Source: a virus. Taken from it: a stretch of 44,362 nucleotides of DNA. Location of the stretch: IMG/VR virus record IMGVR_UViG_3300026130_000343, positions 1 through 44,362 of that record, one strand, 5' to 3'. A model generated the notes under the pieces. It was not told the DNA's origin. It ran no database searches and saw only the letters and a list, made by a program, of their open reading frames with translations. The position numbers and the translations under genes are program-made. This document shows positions 18,320-42,984 of this stretch, one piece after another. Position 1 is the first letter of the stretch. Each line of letters begins with the position of its first letter.

Positions 18320-19589
18320 AAGTCTAACAGAAAGCTGTACATTTTGTATGCATCCTTTTACAGGACTTGCTACACGAGAAGACGGGGCAATTAAAGTTTG
18401 CTGTCGTAGTCAGCCTATTGGCTATATTCAAAACGAAACCCTTGAAGAAGCATGGAATAACGACACCATGCGCGAAGTACGCAGACAAGTATTAAACAAC
18501 GAACGCCCTGATGTATGTAAACCGTGCTTTGACCTAGAAGATCAGGGTGTACAGAGCTTACGACAGCGTCATACAGCAGGGGTAATACCCGAGGCTAGGG
18601 TCAACTTATACCCTAACGCATTAGACGCTTTAAATGACGATTACACAATGCCCTTTGAGATTCCTACTATGGAAATCAAGCTCAACAACTTGTGCAATCT
18701 AAAGTGTCGCATGTGCAATCCGCTCGATAGCACTAGTTGGAAAGACTGGAACGAAGTTAAACCATTTTACGAAAAAGAAAATAATATTCTTATTCCTATT
18801 GTTGACGCACTTACAGACACACCGGGCAAATATATCGGACCGTTTGACAATTCAGACAACTGGTGGAGTAGCTTTGAAAAACTATTACCTTACTTTAGAC
18901 GTGTAGAGTTTGCAGGCGGTGAGCCGCTGATGGATCCATACCATTACAAAATACTAGACAAACTTGCAGAGTATGGTGATAACATAGAACTAAAGTATGC
19001 TACAAACGGCACTACGCTAGGTATAAAAGGCGGACGTACTATACACGACTATTGGCCTAAGTTTAAATCAATTGCTGTAAACGTAAGCATAGACGGCTTG
19101 CACGATGTCTATGAGTACATTAGAGGCAATGGTAAGTTTTCAGAAATAGAAGAAAACATCGAAGTGTTTAAATCATTTCCTAATGTAAGTCGTGTAGTAG
19201 GTGCATTTACGGTACAAGCAAATAACATTATGCAAATAGATCAAGTTATAGACTATTTCATCAATAAGTTAGGTATTGTATTTTATTCGCACCGTGTAAC
19301 TTATCCTATGGCATTAAGTGCGCAAGTATTACCTCCGGAATTAAAAGAAAAGATAGTAGAAAGACTTGAAGCAATGAAAGCTAAAGTTTTAGAATATCCG
19401 TTAGTTAAAGAGCATACATTATTAGAAAATGTAACACTACAACAAATACAAGATAACATTAACTTCTTACAAGCAAAATGCATGTACAACACACACTGGA
19501 AAGATTGTGTGGAGTTTAATAAGCGTTTAGATAAAACTAGAAACCAAGACTTCCTTGCAGTTAATCCAGAATTTAAAGATTATGTTTAA
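18309..19589 (+). CDS. Radical SAM protein with N-terminal SPASM/twitch-type cluster
   Basis: A 426-residue radical SAM enzyme. The N terminus (1-80) carries an auxiliary-cluster-like block, C10, C13, C31, C32, C70 and C73, with the pattern CMHPF..LATREDGAIKVCC and DVCKPC. This is the SPASM/twitch motif placed before, not after, the core. The core follows with C129-x3-C133-x2-C136 in LCNLKCRMC and the GGEPL motif. The same N-terminal arrangement is seen at 22239, 35432 and 36844. Enzymes with auxiliary clusters often modify peptides, sugars or their aldehydes. The gene overlaps the SGNH gene upstream by 11 bases and the next gene by 8. Confidence 0.8.
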   Translation: MNHKSLTESCTFCMHPFTGLATREDGAIKVCCRSQPIGYIQNETLEEAWNNDTMREVRRQVLNNERPDVCKPCFDLEDQGVQSLRQRHTAGVIPEARVNLYPNALDALNDDYTMPFEIPTMEIKLNNLCNLKCRMCNPLDSTSWKDWNEVKPFYEKENNILIPIVDALTDTPGKYIGPFDNSDNWWSSFEKLLPYFRRVEFAGGEPLMDPYHYKILDKLAEYGDNIELKYATNGTTLGIKGGRTIHDYWPKFKSIAVNVSIDGLHDVYEYIRGNGKFSEIEENIEVFKSFPNVSRVVGAFTVQANNIMQIDQVIDYFINKLGIVFYSHRVTYPMALSAQVLPPELKEKIVERLEAMKAKVLEYPLVKEHTLLENVTLQQIQDNINFLQAKCMYNTHWKDCVEFNKRLDKTRNQDFLAVNPEFKDYV

Positions 19590-20385
19590 GATTATTTTAA
19601 CCAACGGCGCTGAAGATCTTGAATTGGAATTCAAGGTCAGAAGTACTGACATTGCTAAAAAATGGTTTGACGAACTGTCTCGATCTTATCCATTATACGA
19701 AGTAGATCGATTCACTAACTGGGGCAATTCAGATCTAATATCTGAGTTAAACGAGCAAATTAATATCATCAATTCTTATCAGGACTTAGTTCCTAGTTTA
19801 ACTAATGAAGTTACACAAGAAGCACTAAATTATTTGCATAAATTCTTTGAAGACCTAATCGGTGATGTAACTAAAGGAAGCACAGAATGGTTTAACGCTG
19901 CTCCTCTGCACGTACAAGAAGCAGTGCGAAAATTTAATATACTAATACACAAATTAGAGGCAGATACTAGAACATCTGATCATCCTACAGTAGTAGTAAC
20001 ATTTAAAGATAGGCCTATCTTTAAATTATCTAATAACGATTTAAAATATTTTACATTTCGCTGGACTTCCGGAACAGTGTATGTAAATTATTGCCAGACA
20101 GGAAAGACTATACTAGACGTTTTTAAGGATAACGATAAAATTGCAGAAGGTATAAGACCGCAAGAGTTTTACAGTGCAGATTTTATGATCAAGTTCGGTC
20201 CTACAACTCCGTATATTAAATATCTAATAAGGAAGGTATTAGTACATGCATGGCTGCCCCTCCAGAAATTTAAGTTTAAAAATTTAAATTTAGGAATGAT
20301 TCCTGTTGCAGATATTACTAGTCCTATAGCACATAGTACATTAAGAAAATATAATAGAGTTAAGGAAGTAAAATGTATAAAGTAG
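19582..20385 (+). CDS. Hypothetical protein between radical SAM genes (267 aa)
   Basis: Not recognised. The 267-residue product starts at an ATG overlapping the preceding stop by 8 bases; an upstream in-frame TTG (19555) was rejected as less likely. The N terminus (FKIILTNGAEDLELEF) looks like a two-strand beta hairpin and the rest is mixed, with a long helical region around 60-130. No catalytic motif, cysteine cluster, signal or membrane segment is visible. Being sandwiched between two radical SAM genes with overlaps on both sides, it may be a substrate-binding or scaffold partner. Confidence 0.6.
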   Translation: MFKIILTNGAEDLELEFKVRSTDIAKKWFDELSRSYPLYEVDRFTNWGNSDLISELNEQINIINSYQDLVPSLTNEVTQEALNYLHKFFEDLIGDVTKGSTEWFNAAPLHVQEAVRKFNILIHKLEADTRTSDHPTVVVTFKDRPIFKLSNNDLKYFTFRWTSGTVYVNYCQTGKTILDVFKDNDKIAEGIRPQEFYSADFMIKFGPTTPYIKYLIRKVLVHAWLPLQKFKFKNLNLGMIPVADITSPIAHSTLRKYNRVKEVKCIK

Positions 20386-21275
20386 AAAGTCGCTGGCAGC
20401 ATCAAGATTCAATTAAAGTAGAATGGAATATCGGTAAGCGATGTAACTTAGACTGTACGTACTGTCCTGCAGAAATACATGATAACTTTAGTCCGCATAC
20501 AAACGTAAAAGTAATGCTAGACACAATAGATGCACTAGCCGAACTAGACAAGCCAGTACGACTTAGTTTTACGGGCGGTGAACCTTGTGTACATCCGGAT
20601 ATTGCAGATATAGTAGAACATGCTGCACAGCGATTAGACTGGATTAACATAACAACCAACGGCACACTTCCGCCTAAATTTTATAGTAAGCTTCCAGTAA
20701 ATCATTATGTTTTTAGCCTACATGTTGAAGACGACGATAACTGGCAGAGATGTGCTAATAATGTGTTGTTTTGGTCGCAGCTAAACGAGACAGGAAGACA
20801 AATTCCTTTTCAAGTTAATCTAATGGCGCATCACGATCATATGGACAGAGTAAAAACCTGTGCAACTATGTTTGACGGGCACGGCATTCCGTATGTTGTA
20901 AGACGCATACGCTGGACAGAAAAGCACGACTGGTTTGATGACCTAAAATATAAAGCAGAAGATTTACAATGGCTAATAAATCAAAAGTCGACGGCTAAGC
21001 CAAACTGCGTTATTGACGACGAGGAACTGGCACACGCTAACGATATTATCAAAGAGCATCGTAACCAATTTGAAGGGTGGACTTGTGCAGCCGGTATTCA
21101 GAGCTTAATGATAAATTGGGATGGCAATGTGCATCGTGCCACTTGTAGAGTAGGCGGAAGTTTAGGTAACATTTATAATGGTAGTTTCGAAGCACCCGAA
21201 GATTGGATAACCTGCACACGTAAATGGTGTACGTGCGCTGCCGATATTCCATTGACTAAGATTTCCACTTTGTGA
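20373..21275 (+). CDS. Radical SAM protein with C-terminal cysteine cluster
   Basis: A 300-residue radical SAM enzyme. The core motif is C24-x3-C28-x2-C31 in RCNLDCTYC and the GGE motif is TGGEPC. The C-terminal part holds further cysteines: GWTCAAG, ATCRVG and a closing cluster TCTRKWCTCA, an auxiliary iron-sulfur-type arrangement. The enzymes at 21256 and 24214 share both the core and this CxxxxC-CxC tail, so they form a paralogous trio. AAGGAAG precedes the ATG, which overlaps the preceding gene by 13 bases. The 3' end overlaps the convergent radical SAM gene by 20 bases. Substrate unknown. Confidence 0.8.
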   Translation: MYKVESRWQHQDSIKVEWNIGKRCNLDCTYCPAEIHDNFSPHTNVKVMLDTIDALAELDKPVRLSFTGGEPCVHPDIADIVEHAAQRLDWINITTNGTLPPKFYSKLPVNHYVFSLHVEDDDNWQRCANNVLFWSQLNETGRQIPFQVNLMAHHDHMDRVKTCATMFDGHGIPYVVRRIRWTEKHDWFDDLKYKAEDLQWLINQKSTAKPNCVIDDEELAHANDIIKEHRNQFEGWTCAAGIQSLMINWDGNVHRATCRVGGSLGNIYNGSFEAPEDWITCTRKWCTCAADIPLTKISTL

Positions 21276-22242
21276 TATGCGTGTCGGGCTGGCATGCACA
21301 ACAATCTCTATCGCAAATAATATAAGGCCTATCTATATTTTTTAAATCATTAAGTAAGTCCGTTGAATATAAATTTAAATCTACATTAAACTTAATGTTA
21401 CACGAGCCCGAAATATTTCCTGATGGAAATATTGTAATTTTTTCCGACACAACGTTGCACTTCCAGCCTGTGAAGTAATTTAATTTATTTATAAGATAAT
21501 AATTTGCATTTGCAGGTACTATTTTATCATCAGGATATATTGCTATACTTTCAACCATTTTGAAATCGTTACGATTCTTTAAAATATAATCAGATTCGGG
21601 CAATCGTTGTGCAGGTTGACTTAAGAACTTTAACTGTTCTTCTGTGCAAGATTCGATATCGTGTCCAGGAGCAATAACAACTTCTTTTGCAAGTATGAAC
21701 CAACTATACTTACTTTGTTTCATAGTTTCAATATCAGCTAAACATTTGTCCCAGTTGGGCGCATCCATTAATACCATAGCAGTAATTTTCTTACCATTTT
21801 CCCAAATAAGATCTGCAACTTCCATGTAATGTTTTATATCTGTATATTCGTTATGATAGCTTAATATAACTTCGTCGATATAAGGAATTATAGTTTTCCA
21901 CCATCGAATCGTACGAGAACCGTTACACGTTAATTGTATGTAGACATCATGTTCTTTTCTTATTTCAGTACAAAATTTTACTAAATGAGGCCAAAGTGTT
22001 GGTTCGCCGCCGCCTGCTATTTCTAAATAGATTTTTGTTTTATTAAATTTGTCTTTATAAAACTCAAACAACTTTCGAAAATTATCTATTACAAAATCAA
22101 TATCATCTCTGTATCTAAACTTTGCAGGATGACTACCTGGAAAGCAATAAGAACAATCAAAGTTACATATATCAGTTGGAAAATATGTTATTGCAATATA
22201 TTCTTGCTCTTGTATGTTAACAATCTTTAAAAGAGATGTCAT
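21256..22242 (-). CDS. Radical SAM protein with C-terminal cysteine cluster
   Basis: A 328-residue paralogue of the enzymes at 20373 and 24214. The core is C26-x3-C30-x2-C33 in ICNFDCSYC and the GGE motif is a GGGEPT form. The tail has GWKCNV, GSCNIK and CDRDCCACQ, again an auxiliary cluster. It is the last gene of the long minus-strand run and is joined to the preceding radical SAM gene by an ATGA overlap. The two convergent radical SAM genes share 20 bases of overlapping coding sequence at their stops. Confidence 0.8.
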   Translation of the reverse strand: MTSLLKIVNIQEQEYIAITYFPTDICNFDCSYCFPGSHPAKFRYRDDIDFVIDNFRKLFEFYKDKFNKTKIYLEIAGGGEPTLWPHLVKFCTEIRKEHDVYIQLTCNGSRTIRWWKTIIPYIDEVILSYHNEYTDIKHYMEVADLIWENGKKITAMVLMDAPNWDKCLADIETMKQSKYSWFILAKEVVIAPGHDIESCTEEQLKFLSQPAQRLPESDYILKNRNDFKMVESIAIYPDDKIVPANANYYLINKLNYFTGWKCNVVSEKITIFPSGNISGSCNIKFNVDLNLYSTDLLNDLKNIDRPYIICDRDCCACQPDTHITKWKS

Positions 22243-23621
22243 AACAAATGTCCTAGTTCTGGAAATACTGTAGCTGCATTTAATCCGCGGATTGCATCTA
22301 GTTTGTTTACGTATTCTTTAAAGCCAGATAACAAATGACTGCTATCTCTACTATCCATATGATTTAATATTCCTTCCCACTGGTTCCAGCCTTTAGGATT
22401 ATGCTTCCAAAAGTCGTCTTCTTGTGTGTAATTGTCCCACAACCATTGTTTTAATTCAGCAAACCGGTTGCGTACATCTTGCTTATCTTCTTCAGGAAGC
22501 ATAGTAATGTTTAAGAATGTAGGTATGTGTACAAGATGTGCGTTAATTAGTCCGCCGCCCATGACATAACCGCTGATTGTACCAATGTTCATCTTTTTAA
22601 AGTTGCTAGTAACTTTCCATTTAATAAACTCCGGTATATGTTTTATATTAAACACCTGGACTGCTGTTGCAATACTAATGTGTATATTATCAGGTGTGTT
22701 GTCAAGTAGTCTTAAGGTGCGTTCTACTTCTTCAAACTTTGTAGGGAAACGTATATATTCGTCACGTTCAAAGCAAGCGTCAATACTAATAGCAAACTTA
22801 ACTTTCTTGAACTTCGACCACAGTTCAATTAATTCTTCATCTACTAATATTCCGTTAGAATTATAACGCAATAATATTTGCTCTTGATAGCCTTGGCGAA
22901 TAATTTCTTTAATAAACATTTTATGTTCGCGAATCATCAAAGGCTCGCCGCCTGCAAAATACACTTGTTTTAAATTAGGTATCTGTGCATATAACTCGTC
23001 CCAGAATTCTTTGCGTTCGTGCCATTTGTTATTAAATTCCTTCTTATCCCATCGCATTTGCTGTTTAACGTTATCGTCTTGTAATACAGGAATAAGCTTT
23101 TGCCAGTCTGATACCCACTTACTCGAATCATGAGGACTACACATAACACATTTAATGTTACAAGTATGCCCTAAACGCAAGTCTAGATATTGTAGTTGTT
23201 CAGGAACAGTTCCATCTTCTTTTGTTTGAGCAATCAGTTCTTGTACATCAACACCTTCATCTGTTACCCACGTAGCAGTTTCCCAGATACGTTTACTTAC
23301 AACCCCTTGAGATTCTTCTTTAAAGCAGCCGGCGCAACTAGCAGGTATGTTGCCTTCTAGCATAGTATTGCGAACTCCGCACATATAATCGCTGTTAAAT
23401 GCTTCTAAAGGCGATGCGTGTGCAAAATTAGTAGGACGTCCGTTATCACCTTTGATTAACCCTATTTCATGATCTTCTCCTGCACCACTAGCATTAGCAG
23501 TACAACACAATCGCATATCGCCGTTAGGCCGTGTTGCTAAATGTATCCAAGGAAGTACACAAAAGGTAGGTGTTCCAGATACTTTTTCTATTTCTTGCTG
23601 GTACTTTTTTAAGTCAGACAC
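22239..23621 (-). CDS. Radical SAM protein with N-terminal SPASM/twitch-type cluster
   Basis: A 460-residue radical SAM enzyme. The N-terminal cysteines C21, C39, C40, C96 and C99 sit in FCVLPW, RLCCTA and SCAGCF, the permuted SPASM-like arrangement also seen at 18309. The core is C154-x3-C158-x2-C161 in TCNIKCVMC, followed by AGGEPL. GTG start, overlapping the preceding gene by one base, with AGGAAG about 9 bases upstream. It is coupled by ATGA to the downstream radical SAM gene at 21256-22242. A methyltransferase-like gene immediately precedes it in the operon. Confidence 0.8.
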   Translation of the reverse strand: MSDLKKYQQEIEKVSGTPTFCVLPWIHLATRPNGDMRLCCTANASGAGEDHEIGLIKGDNGRPTNFAHASPLEAFNSDYMCGVRNTMLEGNIPASCAGCFKEESQGVVSKRIWETATWVTDEGVDVQELIAQTKEDGTVPEQLQYLDLRLGHTCNIKCVMCSPHDSSKWVSDWQKLIPVLQDDNVKQQMRWDKKEFNNKWHERKEFWDELYAQIPNLKQVYFAGGEPLMIREHKMFIKEIIRQGYQEQILLRYNSNGILVDEELIELWSKFKKVKFAISIDACFERDEYIRFPTKFEEVERTLRLLDNTPDNIHISIATAVQVFNIKHIPEFIKWKVTSNFKKMNIGTISGYVMGGGLINAHLVHIPTFLNITMLPEEDKQDVRNRFAELKQWLWDNYTQEDDFWKHNPKGWNQWEGILNHMDSRDSSHLLSGFKEYVNKLDAIRGLNAATVFPELGHLL

Positions 23622-24217
23622 TATTGTTTTCTTCCTATAATCATAAAACGAGTATATTTCGGAGTGTCAAAATTACCTCGCCATATCGGCTTAATTTTGC
23701 TCATAGTTGTAAAATGGTCTATATCAGAAGCGCATCGTATATGTTCTTCTAACTCAAAGTAATTATTGCTTTGTAGTACAATTAGTGACGTATCCGACAC
23801 ATTACTTAACCATTGCTCGTATTGTTCTTGTGTAATATGTTCGCAGCTTGTATTAATAACAACATCTGCCTTTTTAGTATACTCGCACATATCTGCGGTT
23901 ACTGCACGAAACATTCCGCGAATTTCGTACAGCCGATTTATTGTAGTTGCAATTTCTTTGCAAGTAGGATCTATATCAACACTTGTTATTTTCCCTACTT
24001 TTATATTGCTGTTAAAAATTAAGCTTGCTAATACACCATTCCAGCCTCCGTATATAACAATCTCACTTGGACGACTAACAAATTTTTCTAGAGTTTCGAT
24101 CAACCATTGTTTGCTGTGTACTTGACCTTTCCAAAAACTTTCTAATGTACGATATCGATCTTCGCTGTTTCGGATTGCATCCATCCAAAAAAGTACATCT
24201 TCTAATTCAACTTTCAT
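23621..24217 (-). CDS. Class I SAM-dependent methyltransferase-like protein
   Basis: A 198-residue protein. Motif I is IVIYGGWNGVLASL at residues 53-66, strand 2 ends in SVDIDP (about 79-84), and motif IV-like DVVINTSCEHI follows. This is the usual order for small class I methyltransferases, though the GxGxG loop is modified to YGGWNG. It lies between radical SAM genes and is coupled to both sides (ATGA upstream, TAGTG downstream). It may methylate a product or hold SAM for a neighbour. Confidence 0.65.
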   Translation of the reverse strand: MKVELEDVLFWMDAIRNSEDRYRTLESFWKGQVHSKQWLIETLEKFVSRPSEIVIYGGWNGVLASLIFNSNIKVGKITSVDIDPTCKEIATTINRLYEIRGMFRAVTADMCEYTKKADVVINTSCEHITQEQYEQWLSNVSDTSLIVLQSNNYFELEEHIRCASDIDHFTTMSKIKPIWRGNFDTPKYTRFMIIGRKQ

Positions 24218-25212
24218 TGCTTTTCCTTAGGAAGTTTTGAATCTGCTGAGCTAACACACGACGGAGTAATACACTTACGCGGCGTCTTAAACAGCTCAAA
24301 GCCGTCGTTTAACGTGCCTAACGGCTCATCATGGCAACTGTAGCTTCGTTTAACTTCTTGTTCGCGTATAACGCATCCTTGATAGCCTGCATTGCAGGTC
24401 CAGTCTTTAAACTTATTAAACCCGAACGCATTTAATCGTTCTGCTTGGTCTAAGTTATACTTTTTGCCGCTTTTGTCTTCTAGCTCGACTTGATAGAGAG
24501 GTATTAACTGTTTGTAATTGTCTGGGATTCTTTGAGGGAATCCTTGCTGCATTATTTGCATTTGTTCTTCAGTGTAACCTGTAACAACAAAAGAAGCAGT
24601 TGGGTCGGATTGTGGTTTTAAAGTAACGTTAATTCCTCTATCAGCAAACCGTTTAAGTCGAGCGTAAAGATCATCGAACATGTCAGGAACCATAACTTGG
24701 TTAATAGTAACAAATACTCCATTATTCATTAGTTGGAGACACTTATCTCCAAACTCTTGTTCATTAGCAAACTCTGCATGGAAGCTAGCAGTAATGCTTC
24801 TACGCTGTAATTTGCTCGTTGCGTCTAACCATCTATTCCACCATTTGCTACCTGGACTTAGATTTGTAGTCATGTGTATGCTTTGGTATTCGGGTGCTGT
24901 ATCACTACAGTAATGCTCTATAAGCTCCCCAAAGTACTTATACGCAGTAGGCTCTCCGCCGCTAAAACTGAAATGAAAGTTCTTAAATCCGTTTTCGCGA
25001 GCTTGCCTTTTTATTTCATCAAGTGTATTCTTATATGTTTCTAGTGTTTGATGGTCAGGAGTACTACTGCGAGCATACGGCCAACAGTACGAACAGTTGT
25101 AGTTACAGAATCGTGCAAGTATCCAAGATACTGTAAATAAATCAGTACCTAGCAGAGTTTTTTGACCCAGCTTTGTTATATCATTCCACGGTATATTTGT
25201 TGTTGTCATCAT
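24214..25212 (-). CDS. Radical SAM protein with C-terminal cysteine cluster
   Basis: A 332-residue radical SAM enzyme. The core is C36-x3-C40-x2-C43 in FCNYNCSYC, followed by a SGGEPT motif. The C-terminal cysteines occur as DWTCNAG, GCVIRE, YSCHDE and RKCITPSCVS, matching the trio with 20373 and 21256. The two ATGs at the start overlap the upstream radical SAM gene by about 30 bases and no strong ribosome site is visible, so translation may rely on coupling. Confidence 0.8.
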   Translation of the reverse strand: MMTTTNIPWNDITKLGQKTLLGTDLFTVSWILARFCNYNCSYCWPYARSSTPDHQTLETYKNTLDEIKRQARENGFKNFHFSFSGGEPTAYKYFGELIEHYCSDTAPEYQSIHMTTNLSPGSKWWNRWLDATSKLQRRSITASFHAEFANEQEFGDKCLQLMNNGVFVTINQVMVPDMFDDLYARLKRFADRGINVTLKPQSDPTASFVVTGYTEEQMQIMQQGFPQRIPDNYKQLIPLYQVELEDKSGKKYNLDQAERLNAFGFNKFKDWTCNAGYQGCVIREQEVKRSYSCHDEPLGTLNDGFELFKTPRKCITPSCVSSADSKLPKEKQ

Positions 25213-26242
25213 AAACTGCTTTGCTACACTGTCTTGTACAAGTTAAACATTTGTTTTTTCCTTGCCAAAATTCTGGCAATCCTTCAAATAAATTTTTATT
25301 GCTATCTAAAATATTGTCACTACAATTTGGAACACCGATTTCTTCAAGTATGCTTTTTGTATTTTCTACACTGATATTTCTAAGATAATGTATGGGCAAT
25401 TTTTCTTCGACAGGTTGTTCTAAGTAGTCGCCGCCCAGCCAACAACAAGGTAAAATGTTTCCATAAGGATCTATGTAAATGCCTCGATCACTTATACATT
25501 TAGGATCTATTGTTGCTGCTTCAATTGCAGCATTACGTATATTAACATCAACTAGTGCATTTAAACTTTTGTTAGGTGTACGTTTAAATCGAGTTGTTTG
25601 CGCAGGTTTTATTGTATACTCTATAGTGTTGTCGTTACTGTATACTTCGTATTCTGTCATATCATAAAATCGTGTAGTACTTACAAAATTAACACTGCGA
25701 ACACCTAGCTTTAATAAGTAATCTTCGAGCATATCCGCTTCTAGTTCGTTATGCTGAAATACTAAACTGTCTACTCTTGCATTTCCGCCGGCGTCGATAA
25801 ACGCTTTCATATTTTCGATAACTTTATCAAAATTTGTATTTTTACGATAAAGTTCGTGTTTGCCTTTAAATCCGTCTACTGCAAATACTACTTCGATATT
25901 ATACTGTGCTAATTTAGCCCACCAGTCAGGATTACGCATACCGCCATTGGTATGTATTGCTAGCTTTGTTGTAGGATTACATTCACGCACGTATGCATAT
26001 ATCTCTAAACAATCTTTTGCAAATGCAGGGTCGCCGTAGTTGCCGCAACTGTAAAAGTTGTTTAACTGAGCTAGAAAATCTTTTGGAAACCATTCTTTAA
26101 ACTGTTCAAAGCTTATGTCACCGTTGCGTATAAACGGGCGAGTTTTGCCTCCGTGATAGTTTCTAGCACACATAGGACACTGGGCTTGGCACTTGTCCGT
26201 AAGTTCAATGTGAACCGTCTTTATATCAGATACTAACTGCAT
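25181..26242 (-). CDS. SPASM radical SAM protein
   Basis: A 353-residue enzyme with C18-x3-C22-x2-C25 in KCQAQCPMC. The GGE motif is replaced by GNYGDP, an occasional variant of this group. The C-terminal SPASM-type region has CISDRG, PCCWLGG and CTRQC cysteines. The ATG at 26242 is used, with AAGGA about 9 bases upstream, in preference to a TTG at 26245. It overlaps the giant repeat-protein gene by 17 bases. SPASM enzymes usually modify ribosomally made peptides or activate protein sulfatases; the nearest candidate substrate here is the repeat protein itself. Confidence 0.75.
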   Translation of the reverse strand: MQLVSDIKTVHIELTDKCQAQCPMCARNYHGGKTRPFIRNGDISFEQFKEWFPKDFLAQLNNFYSCGNYGDPAFAKDCLEIYAYVRECNPTTKLAIHTNGGMRNPDWWAKLAQYNIEVVFAVDGFKGKHELYRKNTNFDKVIENMKAFIDAGGNARVDSLVFQHNELEADMLEDYLLKLGVRSVNFVSTTRFYDMTEYEVYSNDNTIEYTIKPAQTTRFKRTPNKSLNALVDVNIRNAAIEAATIDPKCISDRGIYIDPYGNILPCCWLGGDYLEQPVEEKLPIHYLRNISVENTKSILEEIGVPNCSDNILDSNKNLFEGLPEFWQGKNKCLTCTRQCSKAVYDDNNKYTVE

Positions 26243-29200
26243 CAAACTGTTCCTTTAACCAATCAAAATTGTTTATAAGCTTTAATTTTTCTGGATTGTT
26301 GATATTAGCATAACCAAAGTCTCTACCAGCAATTGCTCCAGAAATTGCATAATTTCCTAGCGGAGAATTACTACCTTCAGTACACCATACTTTCAATCGT
26401 TCTTCTGTTTCATCATCAATCTGTCCTTGAATTGTTCTACTTGCTAGTTTAACACATTCTCGGAATGCACTTTTCCAAGTATTAAATGGGTCTGTATTAA
26501 ATGCTGTAATGTTAGATACTTGTTGCATTGCTTTAAATGACGGGCTAATACTAGTTGTCATATCTGCACTGTTTACGTCTACATTAAGAGTTAAACTCTT
26601 TGGTAGTAATTTTACGCCGCCGTAGCCGTATTCTAAGTCATTTATAGGATTTCGACTGCGCCAAACATGTACCATTGTTTTTGTGTACGTATCGTGGTTT
26701 GGTACCTGTTTAAAATCAAAATGGAAGTCTTTAGTTATTTTTGCATCTCCGTCTACTACCCAAAACATGTCAGTAACTGAAAGTTTTGCAGCTTCAATAT
26801 GTGCCTGATGAATGCCTTTAACACCGTGTACACGTTTTGCTCTTGGGAATCGTTTTAGTAACTCTTGGTGGTTTTCTTCTGCATTTGGCTCTTGGTAAGA
26901 TATAAACACAATGTCAAACGGTTTAGGAGTAGACGCAGTAATATCCCATACCTTTTTGTTTGTAAGGAAGCTATAAGAAAATTCTTTTTCGGTAATGATA
27001 CTATTTTTACTACACAAGAATATACCATCATGGTACTTGCCATTTAAGAAAGCATGATTCTGTGCTCTGTCAAACTTATTGTCGTGTGTAAAATATGTGT
27101 TAAACTTAAAGTCACTGCAAACATCAACTCTATTTGTCGGTACTGACCAAAACATTTCTGTCTTAGAGTTGTCCAATGCTTTGAGATAATCGTCATATGT
27201 GTTTACATCAAATACATCATATTTCACAGGTCCACTTGCTACAATATTCCATTCTTTTCTGTCTACTGGATGTCTATGCTCAACTTCCCGTTTAGTCAAC
27301 AGATTATGTTTACTACATAGTATTGCACCATTATACAAATCTTTGCCATTTACTCGATGTATAAATGCGTGATTTTGTTTTCTGTCATATTCGTTATCAA
27401 ATGTAAAGTATACACCTGGGTCAGTAAACGAAATATTTCTACTTGACATCCAGAACATTTCAGTTGTACTAGTTTCAACAGCAAGTTCGTATTCATCATA
27501 CGAATCAATTTCAAATACATCGTACTGCACAGGGCCACTTGCTACAACTTCATGCTCAATTCTACTAACTGGGAATCTATGTTCTACTTCTCGTTTACTT
27601 AGAGGTGCATGTTTACTACATAGGAATACACCATTGTATAATTGCTTGTCCTCTACTTGATGTATAAATGCATGATTCTGATCTCGTTCTACTATGTCAA
27701 AATGCGATTGTGCAGGTATATGGTATAAGTAATAGTTGTTAACAATGCTATGATTAAATAGAACGTTTCTACTCGTCATCCAGAACATTTCAGTTGTACT
27801 AGTTTCAAGTGCTTGTAAGTACTCGTCATATGAATCAATTTCAAATACATCGAAAGTTCGTACAGTGCTCGCTACAATATTCCACTCTTTCCTATTAGCA
27901 GGGAATCTGTGTTCTATTTCTCGTTTACTTAACGGAGCACGTTTACTTAATAGCATCAGACCATTGTATAGTACTTCTTCGCCAAACTTATGATTAAACA
28001 CGTGGTTCTGTTGACGGTCATAAGAATTATGATGACTAAAGTACATGTTTAGATCAAATGTATCAAGAACTTTGATATTTCTCGACGAAGCCCAAAACAT
28101 TTCCGTAGAACTATTTTCTAAAACGTACTTGTATTCTTCATAAGAGTCAATATTGTAAAAATCGTACTGCTTTGGAGTACTTGCAAGAATATCCCATTCT
28201 TTCTTATTAGTAAGAAATCTGTATCCAAATTCTTTTTTAGAAATTTTAGAATGGGTTGACGCAAGTATTATGCCGTCGTAAAAGTCGCCATTCTTGAATA
28301 CATGATTTATTGTTCTATCAAATTTATTATCGTGCGTAAAGTACGTATCAAATTTAAAATTATCGTCGGCATCAACGTCACTCGGTATGACCCAAAACAT
28401 TTCTGTGTTAGTTGTTTCAAAGGCTTCGAGATAATCTTCATATGTGTTTACATCAAATACATCGTATTTTACAGGTCCACTTGCTACAACTTCATGTTCC
28501 TTTCTATTAACAGGAAATCTATGTTCAACTTCTCGCTTACTTAGTGGAGCATGTTTGCTACATAGAAAAACACCATTGTATAAATCAGTATCTCCTACTC
28601 GATGTATAAATGCGTGGTTTTGCTTTCTGTCGTATGTATTGTGCAGAGAAAAATAAATAGGAGGAAGATCAGCAGTTAAATTTCTACTACTCATCCAAAA
28701 CAAATCGTTTGTACTGTTTTCAAGTGCTTCTAAGTACTCGTCGTATGAATCGATTTCAAATACTTCATAAGGTTTAGGAATACTTGCAACAATGTCTATT
28801 TCTTTTTTATTAGAAAAAAATCTATGTTCGAACTCTCGCTGTGTAATCTCAGTATCTTTGTGTACTAAAAATAAGCCATCAAAGAACTCACCGTTCTTAA
28901 AAATATGTACAGTGTCCTTTTCCCAGTAAGGTATTTGATAGTCGAAATCAAAAGCAACATCTACGTCACTAGGAATAACCCAAACAAACTCAGTTGTTGC
29001 AGATTGTCTCAAATCATTAAATTCTTGGTATGTGCTCGGATTGATTGCTGCATATTCAACAGGTGTTGAAGCAAGTACATCGACTTCTTTTTTGTTAGTA
29101 AAGAAACGATATTTTATTTCTCTTGTTGACGGAGACGATGATTTAGGTACTAAGCAAATGCCATCGTAGTACTCGTTGTTTTTAAAAACGTGTATGTATT

Positions 29201-29399
29201 CTTGGCTCCATTCGTCCGGTACATAACTAAAATCAAAATCGTTAGCTACGCTGACATTGTCCCACACTATCCAGAAAAACTTTGTAAAGGATACTTTTTT
29301 AGCGTGTTCAAAGTCCTTAGCATACTTAGCAGCAGGGAAGCGCTCTTTAAGAGCACTCCACTGTTCATTTTTTTGTCCTAAAAATATTATATCATTCAT
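26226..29399 (-). CDS. 1057-residue tandem-module protein ending in a GT-A-like domain
   Basis: Residues 1-825 are eight consecutive modules of 95-113 residues (boundaries near 113, 208, 309, 409, 513, 623, 724, 825). Each has a DSYDEYLxALExS helix, MFWxxSRN or MFWVIPSDVD, NHxFxNG..YDGI or ..LYNGV, SKREVEHRFP and a VASGP end. Modules 2 and 4 keep a PSDVD loop; modules 3, 5, 6 and 7 have SRN instead. Residues 826-1057 form a fuller glycosyltransferase-like domain with FISYQEPNAEENH, RVHGVKG and DGD (883-885). This domain is clearly related to the 38255-39196 protein. The modules look like shortened copies of it. The start codon has no ribosome site but sits at the predicted end of a promoter. 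Role unknown; a multivalent glycan binder or processive enzyme is plausible. Confidence 0.75.
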   Translation of the reverse strand: MNDIIFLGQKNEQWSALKERFPAAKYAKDFEHAKKVSFTKFFWIVWDNVSVANDFDFSYVPDEWSQEYIHVFKNNEYYDGICLVPKSSSPSTREIKYRFFTNKKEVDVLASTPVEYAAINPSTYQEFNDLRQSATTEFVWVIPSDVDVAFDFDYQIPYWEKDTVHIFKNGEFFDGLFLVHKDTEITQREFEHRFFSNKKEIDIVASIPKPYEVFEIDSYDEYLEALENSTNDLFWMSSRNLTADLPPIYFSLHNTYDRKQNHAFIHRVGDTDLYNGVFLCSKHAPLSKREVEHRFPVNRKEHEVVASGPVKYDVFDVNTYEDYLEAFETTNTEMFWVIPSDVDADDNFKFDTYFTHDNKFDRTINHVFKNGDFYDGIILASTHSKISKKEFGYRFLTNKKEWDILASTPKQYDFYNIDSYEEYKYVLENSSTEMFWASSRNIKVLDTFDLNMYFSHHNSYDRQQNHVFNHKFGEEVLYNGLMLLSKRAPLSKREIEHRFPANRKEWNIVASTVRTFDVFEIDSYDEYLQALETSTTEMFWMTSRNVLFNHSIVNNYYLYHIPAQSHFDIVERDQNHAFIHQVEDKQLYNGVFLCSKHAPLSKREVEHRFPVSRIEHEVVASGPVQYDVFEIDSYDEYELAVETSTTEMFWMSSRNISFTDPGVYFTFDNEYDRKQNHAFIHRVNGKDLYNGAILCSKHNLLTKREVEHRHPVDRKEWNIVASGPVKYDVFDVNTYDDYLKALDNSKTEMFWSVPTNRVDVCSDFKFNTYFTHDNKFDRAQNHAFLNGKYHDGIFLCSKNSIITEKEFSYSFLTNKKVWDITASTPKPFDIVFISYQEPNAEENHQELLKRFPRAKRVHGVKGIHQAHIEAAKLSVTDMFWVVDGDAKITKDFHFDFKQVPNHDTYTKTMVHVWRSRNPINDLEYGYGGVKLLPKSLTLNVDVNSADMTTSISPSFKAMQQVSNITAFNTDPFNTWKSAFRECVKLASRTIQGQIDDETEERLKVWCTEGSNSPLGNYAISGAIAGRDFGYANINNPEKLKLINNFDWLKEQFDAVSI
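26925..29399 (-). repeat. Eight tandem coding repeats of about 300 bases
   Basis: The DNA encoding residues 1-825 of the giant protein is a tandem array. Very similar strings recur at about 300-base intervals, for example the CATATGAATCAATTTCAAAT-type segment near 27825 and its relatives near 27500, 28140 and 28740. Copies are diverged enough to be stable yet similar enough for recombination, so module number may vary among related phages. Confidence 0.8.
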
Positions 29400-29405
29400 A
29401 GTAAT

Positions 29406-29434
29406 ATATTAACATGACAATTAGTAACTGTCAA
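29406..29434 (-). promoter_or_regulatory. sigma70-like promoter for the giant repeat gene
   Basis: On the minus strand TTGACA (29434-29429) and TAATAT (29411-29406) are 17 bases apart. The spacer holds a near-perfect inverted repeat (TGACAGTT / AATTGTCA, one mismatch) that could be an operator. The predicted start is at about 29399, the first base of the ATG, so the message would be leaderless. Confidence 0.5.
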
Positions 29435-29471
29435 TGTCTTTATATATTAATCTACTAAAATACTTTTAGGT

Positions 29472-30707
29472 TTAGGTGTTAGCATGTCTAGTATTTCCAT
29501 AGTAAATTACGCGACTTGCGTTACTTACAAACTTGCGCCAAGGATCTACAACTACGCTATTTGCAGGAATAGTACAATACAGCTTGTCGTTGCTGTCGCC
29601 TTCTTCCTGCATATATCTGTAAGTAGTACTTGCACTATGCGCCATTAGCATTACACACGGTTCTGCAGGTTCGTTATTGTCGCCAGTTAGTGGATCAATG
29701 TATGTAGGTGCAAAACCATGTTTTTCACAATAATGACCTACTAACAAACTGTAACTACCATTACAATATTCTACACCTGGTTTGTATGCTTTACCGTGAA
29801 TGTAAATAGGCATATTGTTTTCTTTTGCTAAGTCTACTAGTTTAAGTGCAAGATTCTCTGCCTGGATCTCTCTTGCATTCATAATACTGTCAAACAAATC
29901 GTATCCTAGACCTAGTTCTTGTGCCATATAACGTAATGCAATGTTATCACGTGGATGACATGCTCCGCCATCTCCCATGCCTGCTTTCATATATTGTGGA
30001 CCCATAATACGCATTGTACTGTTTGCTAGTGCGTCTGTAACTATGTCTACATTAATGTTGCCTTGTTTTTCAGCAACATCTTGAATCATGTTAACTAGTC
30101 CAATCTTAGCACTAATAAAGGTATTATAAAATACTTTGATACATTCGCATTCGTCCCAAGTGCCGACAATATAACGAGGATCGTTTTCCATTACAGTCTT
30201 ATAGAAGTCAGTTAGTTGTTTCGCATCGCCAGTTTCACTACCATCTGCTGTGCCAATCATAACCATTTCTGGATTTACCATGTCCCAAGCAACAGAACCC
30301 ATCGCAATTAAGTATGGGTTATACACGAAACGAGTATTTGTAACAAGTTGAATAAACTCACGGCGTGTGGTGCCAGGTAGTACAGTAGAAATAAGAACCA
30401 ACAACTGGTCTTGTGTCATATACTTGTTTGCTTCAGTGATACATTCTTTTACAATGTCATAACCGAAATCTTTAGGCTCCAAATGTGCTGTAGGGGCATT
30501 ACCGTCATATGCTGGGTCATGCGGCGTCGGTACTGCAATGAATACAATGTCTCGATCCTCTACTGTGCTTTTAATATCAGATTTTATTTTTACATAATCA
30601 CTGTCTCTAGGCTCGACATCATATCCAAAAACATCATGACCTTTTTGTGCTACTGCTTCTGCACAAGGCATACCTAGTTTGCCTACTCCAATAAATCCAA
30701 TTTTCAT
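29472..30707 (-). CDS. UDP-glucose/GDP-mannose dehydrogenase family protein
   Basis: A 411-residue enzyme that oxidises a nucleotide-sugar to the uronic acid. The N-terminal NAD site is GVGKLG (7-12) and the catalytic cysteine is C250 in GGACHPRD, close to the GxCxPKD form of the family. A C-terminal nucleotide-sugar domain follows. The length is typical. AGGAAGA precedes the ATG within the end of the upstream gene, and the gap is only 2 bases. The enzyme would supply uronate sugars to the adjacent glycosyltransferases. Whether it uses UDP-glucose, UDP-GlcNAc or GDP-mannose cannot be told. Confidence 0.8.
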   Translation of the reverse strand: MKIGFIGVGKLGMPCAEAVAQKGHDVFGYDVEPRDSDYVKIKSDIKSTVEDRDIVFIAVPTPHDPAYDGNAPTAHLEPKDFGYDIVKECITEANKYMTQDQLLVLISTVLPGTTRREFIQLVTNTRFVYNPYLIAMGSVAWDMVNPEMVMIGTADGSETGDAKQLTDFYKTVMENDPRYIVGTWDECECIKVFYNTFISAKIGLVNMIQDVAEKQGNINVDIVTDALANSTMRIMGPQYMKAGMGDGGACHPRDNIALRYMAQELGLGYDLFDSIMNAREIQAENLALKLVDLAKENNMPIYIHGKAYKPGVEYCNGSYSLLVGHYCEKHGFAPTYIDPLTGDNNEPAEPCVMLMAHSASTTYRYMQEEGDSNDKLYCTIPANSVVVDPWRKFVSNASRVIYYGNTRHANT

Positions 30708-30709
30708 TT

Positions 30710-31813
30710 TTATCTTCCTAAAAAGTGTTTTAATTTGTTGTATTCGCTATTATATGTATCGTTTATGTGATTAAAGTTGTACATTACTGAATCTAATATA
30801 CGGTTGTCAGTTGAGAAACTTTTTACTGATTCTAGTGCAAAATCTAGCCGTTTGTAAGGATCTACTATACTATCATATCCTTCGTCGATTATATTATCAA
30901 AAGTGCTATAACCTAGTTTTTTGATGTTTTCTAAAAAATAAGGAGTACTAAGTACAACGAATGGATGAAAATTATAAACAGCTCTTGCAAACTTTTCAGT
31001 AATAAAAAATTGCACTGTTGCATCATTATTTTCATAATGTATATCGTTGGTTTCTGCAATTATGCTGCAAAATGTATTTTGATATAATTTTTCGTCATAC
31101 GGAAACCCAGTATAATGTGTTTCGCTATCACCGTTGCTATGATATGTAATGTCATCTGCTGTTTTAGAATACTTGTGCAATACTTCCTTTAAATCGTTAA
31201 CATCCCAGTACTCTCTTGCCCAGTTTATCGATGCGTCAATTTCGATACCTTTTGCCAGAGAGCTAACCACTGCATCATTAATCATGTTTGTTTGATGCAT
31301 TTTAATTAAAGAGCCGCATCTCATAAATTTTCTAGGTTTGCCAAAAAGTGCAAGATATTTTTTGTCATAATTAAACACAGTGTCAATGGTTTGATGTTTT
31401 TGTTCTCGGTGTTTTAAAACTGCATCTATTTCAAAGTACCTTAAAAAACAAGTATCAAGATCTACACCGAAGTATTTCTTTACAGTTTGAGGATCTAATA
31501 GAGTATGGTAGTTAGTTATAAAGAGAAGTTCTTCTTCCTTTACTCCTGCGCGAAGTATTTTATTAACTACAGGTTTAAGACGTTTTAAAAAATGATCATG
31601 TACGTGTCCTACTTCTCTAACTTGTACAGGCGAGAAAACAATTTTTTGACTACGAGATCTATGAAATTTTACTATATCATTCCAGTTTTTGCTATGTAAA
31701 AGATATGCAAATGACTCTATTCTATCTTTATAAATTTCAAATACGGCGAAATGATTAAAACTAACCGTATGCAAGATATTATCTACTGTGTGATCAATTA
31801 TTTCGTTATTCAT
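30710..31813 (-). CDS. Glycosyltransferase-like protein, EKxxR/H-PF family member
   Basis: A 367-residue protein sharing its C-terminal block (ITEKFARAVYNFHPFVVL, then GYSTFDNIIDEGYDSI and DPYKRLD) with the proteins at 32420 and 34153. The layout, with an acidic-basic EK pair ahead of a PFxxL strand and an aromatic closing block, is reminiscent of GT-B fucosyltransferase-like enzymes. The ATG at 31813 was chosen over a TTG at 31819, since it gives an ATGA overlap with the upstream gene and an AGGAAA site. It is coupled upstream to a methyltransferase-like gene and precedes the sugar dehydrogenase gene by 2 bases. Sugar donor unknown. Confidence 0.6.
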   Translation of the reverse strand: MNNEIIDHTVDNILHTVSFNHFAVFEIYKDRIESFAYLLHSKNWNDIVKFHRSRSQKIVFSPVQVREVGHVHDHFLKRLKPVVNKILRAGVKEEELLFITNYHTLLDPQTVKKYFGVDLDTCFLRYFEIDAVLKHREQKHQTIDTVFNYDKKYLALFGKPRKFMRCGSLIKMHQTNMINDAVVSSLAKGIEIDASINWAREYWDVNDLKEVLHKYSKTADDITYHSNGDSETHYTGFPYDEKLYQNTFCSIIAETNDIHYENNDATVQFFITEKFARAVYNFHPFVVLSTPYFLENIKKLGYSTFDNIIDEGYDSIVDPYKRLDFALESVKSFSTDNRILDSVMYNFNHINDTYNSEYNKLKHFLGR

Positions 31814-32418
31814 AACCAATTTCCTAGTGCAACATAGTCATTATTTGTCCACGGATCTGTATGCCGAGGAAGCAACGTCCATCCATTATTTAATAACCAA
31901 GGAACAGCAGTCCTACCTTTTCCTACCCACTCATCTTTTGCAAAGTGTGTATCATCTATTTGTATTATACACTTTTTAGAACATTTTGAATTTACTTTTT
32001 GGGCCTGAGTTAAATGGGCCTTATAGCAATTTTCGTTATTCATGTTTATGTTAAAATCTTTTTTGTATTTGCCGATTTGCTCTAAAATATAAGACTCACT
32101 TTCAGTGCCAGGCCGTATCAAATCAAAATTATCAAGATAAGCGTAAGAAATAGGTTCTTTGATATCGTCAATTTTGTCTTCGCCTTTACCTGTAAGTATC
32201 TTAATATTCGAGTGTTTTACTCTTTCGAATTTTGTTAAATGTCGTGTTAGTTCAGGATTAATATCTATACTATAAAAGTTAAACTTAGTGTTATGCGAAA
32301 CATAGCCTGCAAAAAAATGAGTACTACCATCTCCTCTCGACGATCCTATCTCTACTATAGCACCTGAATCTATTACGTCTTCGTAATCCAAAATCAAGTC
32401 AAATGCTGATGCTCCCAT
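31810..32418 (-). CDS. Class I SAM-dependent methyltransferase-like protein
   Basis: A 202-residue protein. Motif I is IVEIGSSRGDGST (21-33) and strand 2 ends in YSIDINP (49-55), both standard for class I methyltransferases. A later QIDDTHFAKDEWVGKG segment places a DD pair at the position where small Methyltransf_24-type proteins have a metal or acceptor site. Coupled by ATGA to the glycosyltransferase-like gene at 30710, which suggests a sugar O-methylation step. GGAG precedes the ATG. The preceding gene ends one base upstream. Confidence 0.7.
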   Translation of the reverse strand: MGASAFDLILDYEDVIDSGAIVEIGSSRGDGSTHFFAGYVSHNTKFNFYSIDINPELTRHLTKFERVKHSNIKILTGKGEDKIDDIKEPISYAYLDNFDLIRPGTESESYILEQIGKYKKDFNINMNNENCYKAHLTQAQKVNSKCSKKCIIQIDDTHFAKDEWVGKGRTAVPWLLNNGWTLLPRHTDPWTNNDYVALGNWL

Positions 32419-32419
32419 A

Positions 32420-33376
32420 TTATGCTCCTTTTATTGATCGCCAAAGATGATCAATTCCGTTAATTTTATTAATATTATTTTCCATGTAAACAAAGTGTTT
32501 TTTTACAACATCTGGTATTAACGTTTCGTTTTTAGATAGATGTTCGGCTGCTAATTTATTTCTTTTAGCCTTTTCTTTTGTCTTTTCTTTTAACATTGTA
32601 AGATCTAAATTTTCTAGTTTTTTTAGATTTTCAATTACGCCAATGATTCGCTCTTCTATTGTGTCGTAATTATCAAAACTATAATCAAATATCTCGTCGT
32701 ACATTTCTATACCAAGTGTCTGTAAATATTGATGAATGCCTTTTGCTCCTACGATTAAAAAAGGTTTCTCTAAAAATACAGCAGTCCATGTCTTTTCAGT
32801 TAAAAAAGGTTTATCAGGAGTAGACTCTGCTACTACATTTATTAGCGATTCAAAATATTCTTTTGGTATTTTTTTATATGTGTTTCTTGTTTTGGCATAG
32901 TTGTCGTTTAAAAACAAATGTTTTGGCTTCCAGTATTTCCAGTTATACTCTACATCAGGATAATGCCAAGTAACTATATTTTTACTCAGAATGTTTTCTT
33001 TTTCAAACAGATCTATCATTAAACATCTATGCTCCCAAGGCTGATTGTTTAACGAAACAAATAAATTTTTAATTTCACAATCTACAGGAGCTTGAAATTC
33101 TTTTTGTAATTGATATTTTGTATGCATACACCAATAATTTGGCCAGCAGTGTACATTTACATTTTGTGGGAAATATTCCATTTCTTTATAAAATTCTGTA
33201 CTGTAAGTTCCAAAAACAATATCTACACTTTTATTATCAAAAATGCTAAAATCAATATTCCAATATCTTGATATTTCCCATTCTTCTGCTGCAAATATTT
33301 TTAATTTTTTAGGAACTTTTTTTAAAGATCTAATCTGATCCCAGTGATCCCACAAATGATAATAATTATACTCCAC
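32420..33376 (-). CDS. Glycosyltransferase-like protein, EKxxR/H-PF family member
   Basis: A 318-residue protein. Its C-terminal block (FLTEKTWTAVFLEKPFLIVG, then GIEMYDEIFDYSFDNY and EERI) matches the proteins at 30710 and 34153 in order and spacing. The N-terminal half has FGTYSTEF and NVHCWPNYW. GTG start with AGGAG six bases upstream, overlapping the SGNH gene by 11 bases. Most likely a GT-B-like sugar transferase, but catalytic proof is missing. Confidence 0.6.
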   Translation of the reverse strand: MEYNYYHLWDHWDQIRSLKKVPKKLKIFAAEEWEISRYWNIDFSIFDNKSVDIVFGTYSTEFYKEMEYFPQNVNVHCWPNYWCMHTKYQLQKEFQAPVDCEIKNLFVSLNNQPWEHRCLMIDLFEKENILSKNIVTWHYPDVEYNWKYWKPKHLFLNDNYAKTRNTYKKIPKEYFESLINVVAESTPDKPFLTEKTWTAVFLEKPFLIVGAKGIHQYLQTLGIEMYDEIFDYSFDNYDTIEERIIGVIENLKKLENLDLTMLKEKTKEKAKRNKLAAEHLSKNETLIPDVVKKHFVYMENNINKINGIDHLWRSIKGA

Positions 33377-34160
33377 GTAATTCTCCTAAATGTGAATAGT
33401 TGTATTTTGCATTTATTTTATATGCTTTACGATGCATATCATTCCAAGAATCTTTCAATGATAATATAGCCGACATGTCATCATAATAATTATAAAAAAA
33501 CTCTCTCGTTTCGTCCTTAATTGTTCTTTTTTCAAATAATTTTGGATAGATATATTTTTCAACAATGTCTATATGTGATAGTACATCAGGATGCGTATCC
33601 ATGCAGTTCATTTTAAATCTAGAATTATTAATTTTAGGGACATCAATTTCAGGTATATTTCTATAGTAAGTTCGGATTAACGATAGTGTAGTATCCGTTA
33701 CATTGTTTTTATTAGCTAAATCATAATTATTATTTTCTTCATTTATTATATCAAACGGAAAATCAAACGAGAATTGATAATTAATTAATTTACTGTAAGC
33801 ATCGTTTGTTGTTTGTAGTATAACTGAATTTTTTATTAAATCATTATCCAAGCTCCAATATTTTCTTACAAATTTTTTGTCATAAAACGTGTTATTGAAA
33901 ATGTTGCCTCCGGATTTCCAGCCATCTATATACCTATCTTCTCTATTCCAGCCTGACCATTGTACGATAACTAAATCGTTAGAAGAGATGTTATGTTGAT
34001 TTTTAGCCTCAACAAATCTTGACTGAATTGCCTGATTTCCGGACCCCCAGGATCCCCAATTCTGATGCTCTATACTTAAATCTTTTGCAATAATATCTGC
34101 CCATGTTGGCCAAAACCAATTCGTCCACGAACATCCAAAGCTAAAAAATCTATTATACAT
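33366..34160 (-). CDS. SGNH/GDSL-like hydrolase
   Basis: A 264-residue protein. Block I is FGCSWTNW (S11), a GSGNQA segment lies near 40-45 (block III-like), and a closing DTHPDVLSH carries the DxxH pair. It has the same plan as the 17690 gene, with a longer middle. No signal peptide. It overlaps both neighbours (8 and 11 bases), so it is tied to the glycosyltransferase-like genes. A sugar O-acetyl or lipid esterase role fits this setting. Confidence 0.65.
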   Translation of the reverse strand: MYNRFFSFGCSWTNWFWPTWADIIAKDLSIEHQNWGSWGSGNQAIQSRFVEAKNQHNISSNDLVIVQWSGWNREDRYIDGWKSGGNIFNNTFYDKKFVRKYWSLDNDLIKNSVILQTTNDAYSKLINYQFSFDFPFDIINEENNNYDLANKNNVTDTTLSLIRTYYRNIPEIDVPKINNSRFKMNCMDTHPDVLSHIDIVEKYIYPKLFEKRTIKDETREFFYNYYDDMSAILSLKDSWNDMHRKAYKINAKYNYSHLGELRGV

Positions 34161-35442
34161 TATATAAATCCTTTAATACAGAATCATAATTAACCCATTG
34201 CGTGTTTGTTAAATGTTCGTAATTATGCTCTAGTACACTTCGCATATCAGAATACATACTTAACCACTCGCTTTTTGATTTTTTATTCAACGACGAAGCA
34301 AGCTTGCAAATAGCATCAAGTCTTTGTACAGGATCTTCGATCGAATCATAACTTTCGTCCCAAAAATCTGAAAAAGTTTTAAACCCGAAAGTTTTAAGTG
34401 TTTTTAAGGCGTGAGGTTGACACACTAATATAAACGGATGCATCGCCCGCATAGGCTTAAATATTTTTTCACTAAAAAATACACTATCTTTATAATGATC
34501 TTGAAAATAAGTTTCTGTTATAATACTATACCAAGTATTTAAATACGTGCTTTTTAAAAAATGTTGAGCCTTATTTACTGTAAAATCAGAAACATCAACT
34601 GTAAGCGGTACTTTAGATTTAATATTATCAAGATTTGTCTTGTTAAATGCATTGTGATTTTTAAAAGTTTTAGTATCTAAATAGTGATTATCGTACACAT
34701 CAAAACTAAGCTCGCTGCCTTCAATGAGGTCGTAATAGTTCAACATTGCAAGAAGTGCAATTCTGTGTTGTCTAATTACCCTATTCAAACAACTAAACGT
34801 CTTAACATGATTATTATTTTTAAAATCTAAATGTTCATCAACTGTTACTTCTGATCCAGACTTAGTTGACTGAAAAAAATGATGACCGCGTGACATTTCC
34901 GCAAAAAACATTTGATCTACAATTCTCATTCTTTTCTTAATATTGTTAGCATTACACCACATTTGATATTTCTTGTTTTCAATAAGATTAGAAGTGCTAT
35001 AGATAATTTGTTCAGGATTAATATTATACTGATCAATCTTATTATGTATAGATCTATAATAATCTTTTTTGTTAATTGAATCAAGCAACGGAAATCCTTC
35101 CAACGTTTGATCAATATGTATTACTGCCTTTTTAGTGTTTGTTAATTTAAACAGCTTAGGTTGTTGTTGATGTATTAAGTCAAACATGTGTATTAAATTC
35201 GGATAATCTTTGTTTAAGTCTCCTAACCACCAATACGGTCCTTGAGTTGTTCCAATTTCATAAATGATATTTTTATTTTGTTTTTTAGCATCTTTAAAAT
35301 TAGAGTGCGTAAGTTTAAATGCATTAGAGATACTAAAATAAAAGTAATTTTGAGAAAATCTAAATCTTTGATCAGAATCTTTAGTACTTAAATTATATCT
35401 GTTAGGAGTATCGTATACACTAACTACTTCTTTAATCGTCAT
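34153..35442 (-). CDS. Glycosyltransferase-like protein, EKxxR/H-PF family member
   Basis: A 429-residue protein, the largest of the three-member family. Its C-terminal block reads FFSEKIFKPMRAMHPFILVC, then GFKTFSDFWDESYDSI and DPVQRLDAI. The N-terminal half has a QNYFYFSISN segment and an IIYEIGTTQGPYWWLG strand-loop. Start ATG overlaps the upstream radical SAM gene by 11 bases. The three paralogues are separated by an SGNH gene and a methyltransferase gene, suggesting several sugar transfers in one pathway. Confidence 0.6.
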   Translation of the reverse strand: MTIKEVVSVYDTPNRYNLSTKDSDQRFRFSQNYFYFSISNAFKLTHSNFKDAKKQNKNIIYEIGTTQGPYWWLGDLNKDYPNLIHMFDLIHQQQPKLFKLTNTKKAVIHIDQTLEGFPLLDSINKKDYYRSIHNKIDQYNINPEQIIYSTSNLIENKKYQMWCNANNIKKRMRIVDQMFFAEMSRGHHFFQSTKSGSEVTVDEHLDFKNNNHVKTFSCLNRVIRQHRIALLAMLNYYDLIEGSELSFDVYDNHYLDTKTFKNHNAFNKTNLDNIKSKVPLTVDVSDFTVNKAQHFLKSTYLNTWYSIITETYFQDHYKDSVFFSEKIFKPMRAMHPFILVCQPHALKTLKTFGFKTFSDFWDESYDSIEDPVQRLDAICKLASSLNKKSKSEWLSMYSDMRSVLEHNYEHLTNTQWVNYDSVLKDLYNV

Positions 35443-42976: not shown

Positions 42977-42984
42977 TATTTATA
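42977..42984 (-). promoter_or_regulatory. T4-type late promoter element
   Basis: Exact TATAAATA on the minus strand (42984 to 42977), overlapping the stop codon of the upstream gene. Predicted start is about 42971, a 29-base leader before the ATG at 42942 with an AGGA ribosome site. This is the best evidence for T4-style late control in this window. Confidence 0.75.

Follow-up and report, generated by a model that had tools for sequence, protein, structure and literature searches.

Why would a phage encode a single glycosyltransferase-like domain behind a row of eight modules that look like degraded copies of it? The question is raised by one gene of IMG/VR virus record IMGVR_UViG_3300026130_000343, whose whole stretch of 44,362 nucleotides is called the window here. 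The gene is a genuine open reading frame of 1057 residues on the minus strand, in which eight units of 95-111 residues (ends in Table 1) are followed by a C-terminal domain (CTD) with the motif DGD. An original prediction, made from the DNA letters alone, had described this eightfold repeat and the kinship of the CTD to a stand-alone paralogue in the same window. Both descriptions were confirmed: the unit ends could be mapped, D883 and D885 are intact, and the CTD and the paralogue share 33-40% identity and the DGD motif.

Modules and the C-terminal domain

The relationship between modules and CTD was analyzed with profiles and with structure models. A module-only profile (268 distinct modules, CTDs excluded) matched 44 CTDs (lowest E 7e-12) and not one of 1250 shuffled controls, and the profile-profile comparison of module and CTD with hhalign gave P 9e-9. 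These profiles indicate that the modules and the CTD are homologous and share common descent with the GT-A core of glycosyltransferases (GTs). AlphaFold2 models of the CTD (predicted local distance difference test score, pLDDT, 90.3; predicted template modelling score, pTM, 0.84) and of modules 6-8 modelled together (pLDDT 90.8, pTM 0.82), which formed a rigid row, agreed in the order of their elements, and as modelled the module is the CTD core minus helix A/strand 2 and minus the C-terminal helices. When the module row was compared with solved structures, the leading matches were nearly all GT-A folds (best E 0.05, below significance). Since the element order is shared and the fold matches are mostly GT-A, the modules do not appear to be an unrelated fold, and profiles and models together support the earlier proposal that they are shortened CTD homologues that have lost DxD.

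In 163 modules the residues of the fold were retained (CTD numbering: A46 in 98%, T52 in 94%, W56 in 96% and H87, G104 and L107 in 100%), while H43, K106, D117 and the FREC helix were lost and the first Asp of DxD remained in 1%. The helix A/strand 2 segment is missing from all modules but the first of the array, or N-cap, which appears to retain it, judging from its sequence and from CTD-profile matches that begin near position 3. As the first Asp and most other invariants of the catalytic domain are gone, the modules are classed, on sequence, as pseudo-GT cores rather than enzymes. Binding of a nucleotide-sugar in the usual mode is unlikely for the internal modules, because helix A/strand 2 and nearly all CTD invariants have been lost. 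On the other hand, several polar residues are near-invariant in 268 modules (module numbering: H58 in 100%, E86 in 97%, K96 in 94%, K78 in 91% and R90 in 90%), and a putative role of the modules is acceptor or partner binding.

The CTD itself is, by its predicted fold, a divergent GT-A enzyme, thus of a known kind, and is predicted to transfer sugars. Foldseek comparison with the PDB gave 38 matches at E <= 0.001, nearly all of them GT-A transferases or GT-A-fold nucleotidyltransferases and including RmlT, WrtF, ppGalNAcT and SunS/ThuS (E from 2.4e-5; template modelling scores, TM-scores, 0.3-0.46). The CTD family has 30 invariant columns, among them both Asp of D[GA]D (28 aligned members), which lie at the end of core strand 58-63, the position of the DxD metal motif, in agreement with the glycosyltransferase-like domain originally predicted. 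Sequence searches of the PDB with the whole protein, the CTD profile and a profile of the N-terminal domain of a second array type (see below) gave no matches, nor did the search of NCBIfam with the CTD family. A Pfam T4_gp9_10_C match to the whole protein (E 4e-5, below the cut-off, 26 residues and no single significant stretch) and two PHROG matches were rejected as repeat-summed or chance scores.

Comparison with known systems places the CTD near the GT-A enzymes of GT2/GT27-like type named above, which it resembles in fold and in the position of DxD after the core strand. It differs from them in sequence (identity about 10%, TM-scores no higher than 0.46), in its own C-terminal helices, in an invariant FRE motif and in the row of pseudo-cores in front of it, and no family was assigned to it in Pfam, NCBIfam or PHROG. 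More than one GT domain per chain is also found in K4CP/KfoC (PDB 2z86), K4CP being among the structural matches of the CTD, and in LARGE1; these proteins have two GT domains, normally active, whereas a phage array has one intact core and as many as 16 degenerate ones. Among viral structure models the only significant matches to the module row were A0A6J5L5L5 (1076 aa, E 7e-8) and A0A6J5LK21 (804 aa, E 3e-7), uncharacterised proteins of uncultured Caudovirales phages with 12-13% identity to the row. The open literature searched for inactive or tandem glycosyltransferase domains contained no such architecture, nor did Pfam, PHROGs, NCBIfam or solved structures yield a capped row that combines up to 16 pseudo-GT cores and a single intact unit. 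The prediction of a new architecture therefore stood in that no description was found; its single catalytic unit does not hold throughout, since certain paralogous arrays lack it.

Arrays in phages and single-domain homologues in bacteria

A scan of viral sequences yielded 79 related loci, in which intact arrays contain 3 to 16 modules and one CTD. Nearest-neighbour analysis revealed three position classes, N-caps being closest to N-caps (24/24), C-caps to C-caps (19/23) and internal modules to internal modules (112/116). The motif following the conserved T-E-M-F-W strand of each module, equivalent to VVDGDA of the CTD, had been assigned exactly by the original prediction (SRN in modules 3, 5, 6 and 7, PSDVD in 2 and 4), modules 1 and 8 being of other types. 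Its division of the array into two subtypes gave way to the position classes instead, the PSDV-type modules being dispersed among the internal ones.

Each of the eight modules of a collinear, 93%-identical relative (L001) scored 84-134 bits against the module profile, and chance does not account for the repeat. The ratio of nonsynonymous to synonymous substitution rates (dN/dS) of modules was 0.05-0.14 in most pairs, close to the CTD value, and 0.35 in one pair; the modules are under strong purifying selection. Close relatives differ by whole modules, and forms of 1196 and 1300 aa were each found in several metagenomes.

The second type of array has an additional N-terminal domain and is flanked by tail-fibre genes with an S74 chaperone, by sheath/connector genes and by a gene for a GT-like protein of 200 aa, which overlaps the start of the array from upstream. 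Some of these arrays have seven modules (845-848 aa) and no CTD, and others end in a CTD remnant with a module in place of the GT core (534 aa). All four large contigs with a non-catalytic array (G002, G003, G011 and G016; 236-382 kb) also encode a catalytic array of the window type and the stand-alone paralogue. This coexistence argues that the modules act in their own right. One dead array (L163, 3073-4674) has a module in place of the GT core and still has the C-terminal helices of the CTD, with FREC changed to FIET, which suggests recombination between module and CTD. At another locus (L047, 5968-10088) the paralogue is followed by two frames, one with modules only (453 aa) and one with modules and CTD (641 aa), and the successive frames overlap; this is a split array or else a frameshift.

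Large T4-type phages carry the arrays: Gp23, the capsid protein of the T4 type, was present in 10 of the 14 records tested, most large contigs among them. In the second lineage, one virion protein was closest to that of the jumbo phages Sinorhizobium phage Phosso and Agrobacterium phage Atu_ph07. No match was obtained in the phage isolate records searched for array and paralogue. Public metagenome-assembled genomes of Neomarinimicrobiota and Gammaproteobacteria (L082/L154 and L088/L156) have family genes beside phage tail-fibre-like genes and contain Gp23; these contigs are probably those of large phages binned with bacteria.

Single-domain members of the CTD family, homologous over the full length (E 1e-28 to 1e-90), occur in Photorhabdus, Streptomyces, Bdellovibrionota (18/291 genomes) and other bacteria, often with GT1/GT2 enzymes as neighbours or fusion partners, and in some phages and bacteria the paralogue is next to the CTD or fused with it. 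No modules were detected in 14 CTD-family genomes or in the 291 Bdellovibrionota genomes, and in a mixed control run the module model did detect phage records. Since the bacterial carriers of the CTD had no modules, the module row appears, as far as the search extended, to have been elaborated by phages. A Bdellovibrionia chromosome (L086, 5039-11640) has paralogue and CTD genes beside three window-like radical SAM genes, between housekeeping genes, and this locus is a module-free version of the system. A Bdellovibrionia protein of 1243 aa (L093, 5923-9651) has an N-terminal CTD-family domain fused to two GT2 domains, which supports a role of the family in glycan synthesis. The single-domain family is present in many species of Streptomyces and Nocardia (L100-L161, L162), and on one Streptomyces rochei plasmid a member annotated as hypothetical lies between two genes annotated as glycosyltransferases.

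Possible function of the module row

The best reading of the array, which we hold tentatively and at somewhat less than an even chance, is a pseudo-glycosyltransferase scaffold that keeps a repetitive acceptor in place for the one active transferase. One GT would be mounted on a scaffold of its own degenerated copies; sequence and predicted structure show the modules packed as a rigid row whose two end members are distinct, with the intact GT-A domain and its D[GA]D closing it. The conserved faces of consecutive modules would grip a repetitive acceptor, which may be a protein of the tail fibre or a surface glycan that is still growing, and the lone active unit would modify it repeatedly or across a set distance, with a product that changes recognition at the phage or host surface. 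Non-catalytic arrays would bind this target too, and another protein would supply the enzyme. Support for the acceptor-holding scaffold comes from the homology and common element order of modules and CTD, the GT-A matches of the CTD, its invariant D[GA]D set beside modules with fold columns retained and catalytic columns lost, the position classes, the rigidity of the modelled row, the purifying selection on modules, their near-invariant polar residues, the coexistence of module-only and catalytic arrays in the same phages, the GT1/GT2 neighbours and fusion partners of single-domain homologues, and the position of the arrays in tail-fibre/host-recognition regions. That the capped rigid row is in addition an adjustable ruler or clamp, its module number altered by whole-module recombination and setting the reach or frequency of the terminal GT on a repetitive fibre or surface glycan, seems to us doubtful. 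Several points speak against the acceptor-holding scaffold: the CTD has low TM-scores against solved GTs; Pfam Glycos_transf_2 (GT2) matches 12/28 CTD members weakly (best E 0.0035, under the usual cut-offs); the modules alone reach solved GT-A folds below the significance level; their conserved residues may be inter-module contacts and not a ligand face; the enzyme may act on host glycans just as well as on fibres; and both the transferase activity and the ligand of the array are putative.

The strongest rival, possible though unlikely, is a structural spacer, a rigid rod and possibly a virion part that positions the terminal GT-A domain as an enzyme or sugar-binding tip, with non-binding modules whose number sets the reach. 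The rigidity of the modelled row, the special N- and C-caps, the presence of the second array type among tail genes and the freely variable module number all fit such a rod, but arrays without a CTD would sometimes have nothing to position, and polar residues near-invariant in every module suggest a role beyond spacing. Because of these module-only arrays and polar residues, a holder is preferred over a spacer. It is rather improbable that the modules are a docking platform which binds the island enzymes (radical SAM proteins, the paralogue and the coupled 200-aa GT) and organises an assembly line. Radical SAM genes and the 23621-24217 gene do recur near window-type arrays, and the 200-aa GT gene overlaps the upstream end of the second type; however, the second type has no radical SAM neighbours, and bacteria have the CTD, the paralogue and radical SAM genes yet no module.

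Retention of activity or donor binding by the modules, which would make the array a multi-site transferase, could be proposed for N-caps and PSDV modules, as the second Asp is present in 22/23 N-caps and 23/116 internal modules. The near-complete loss of the first Asp, the absence of helix A/strand 2 outside N-caps and the loss of H43, K106, D117 and the FREC helix make this very improbable. Least credible is a neutral expansion of repeats by slippage without function, or an origin of the length differences in collapsed-repeat assembly. L003 and L022 are identical apart from a single exact module, which is what repeat collapse would produce, and collapse during assembly may account for this difference; a 69-residue deletion lies inside one module of L025. 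Against this stand the low dN/dS of most modules, the recurrence of the 1196-aa and 1300-aa forms, the positional caps and the divergence of the window modules, which are at most 74% identical to each other in DNA.

Genomic neighbourhood and significance

Arrays were found in tail-fibre/host-recognition regions, and on the operon strand of the window the tail-fibre-like genes (PHROG tail fibre match) are followed by the paralogue and then by the array (Table 1). Window-type arrays sit among radical SAM genes. The window island (18309-38238) contains at least seven of these, one encoding a clear NF033640 twitch-domain radical SAM protein, and a small gene within it matched nothing in Pfam or NCBIfam. 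A dehydrogenase-like gene lies immediately upstream of the array, and its product possibly supplies a sugar-acid donor.

Table 1. Positions of the array protein, its parts and neighbouring genes in the window
Feature	Positions	Strand	Residues	Motif or remark
Array protein	26226-29399	minus	1057 aa	eight modules and catalytic-type domain
Module 1, N-cap	29067-29399	minus	1-111	IVWDNV; helix A/strand 2 segment retained
Module 2	28782-29066	minus	112-206	PSDV type (VIPSDV)
Module 3	28479-28781	minus	207-307	SRN type (MSSRNL)
Module 4	28179-28478	minus	308-407	PSDV type (VIPSDV)
Module 5	27867-28178	minus	408-511	SRN type (ASSRNI)
Module 6	27537-27866	minus	512-621	SRN type (MTSRNV); in structure model
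Module 7	27234-27536	minus	622-722	SRN type (MSSRNI); in structure model
Module 8, C-cap	26931-27233	minus	723-823	SVPTNR; in structure model
CTD, GT-A type	26229-26930	minus	824-1057	
DGD codons	26745-26753	minus	D883-G884-D885	D[GA]D invariant in CTD family
Stand-alone CTD paralogue	38255-39196	minus	313 aa	DGD
Radical SAM genes and small gene	21256-26245	minus		downstream, recurrent beside array
Radical SAM gene	18309-19589			
Radical SAM gene	21256-22242	minus		
Radical SAM gene	22239-23621	minus		
Small gene	23621-24217	minus		
Radical SAM gene	24214-25212	minus		
Radical SAM gene	25181-26245	minus		
UDP-glucose/GDP-mannose dehydrogenase-like gene	29472-30707	minus		
Radical SAM gene	35432-36847			
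Radical SAM gene	36844-38238			
Tail-fibre-like genes	42980-44335	minus		

The island is comparable to the host recognition cluster of pelagimyophages, a tail-fibre region which includes glycosyltransferases, UDP-glucose dehydrogenase and radical SAM cassettes and is proposed by its authors to change the host surface (PMC7029224); the passages on it describe no such array.

The window protein comes from an uncultured large phage and is unnamed in the family libraries used. To our knowledge, few repeat arrays derive from degenerated enzyme domains. In this case an enzyme has seemingly acquired a rigid capped scaffold made from as many as 16 copies of itself, with a copy number that varies among close phages, so that the question whether pseudo-enzyme repeats serve as clamps or rulers becomes testable. 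The arrays also point to an unexplored route by which large environmental phages may modify fibres or host surfaces.

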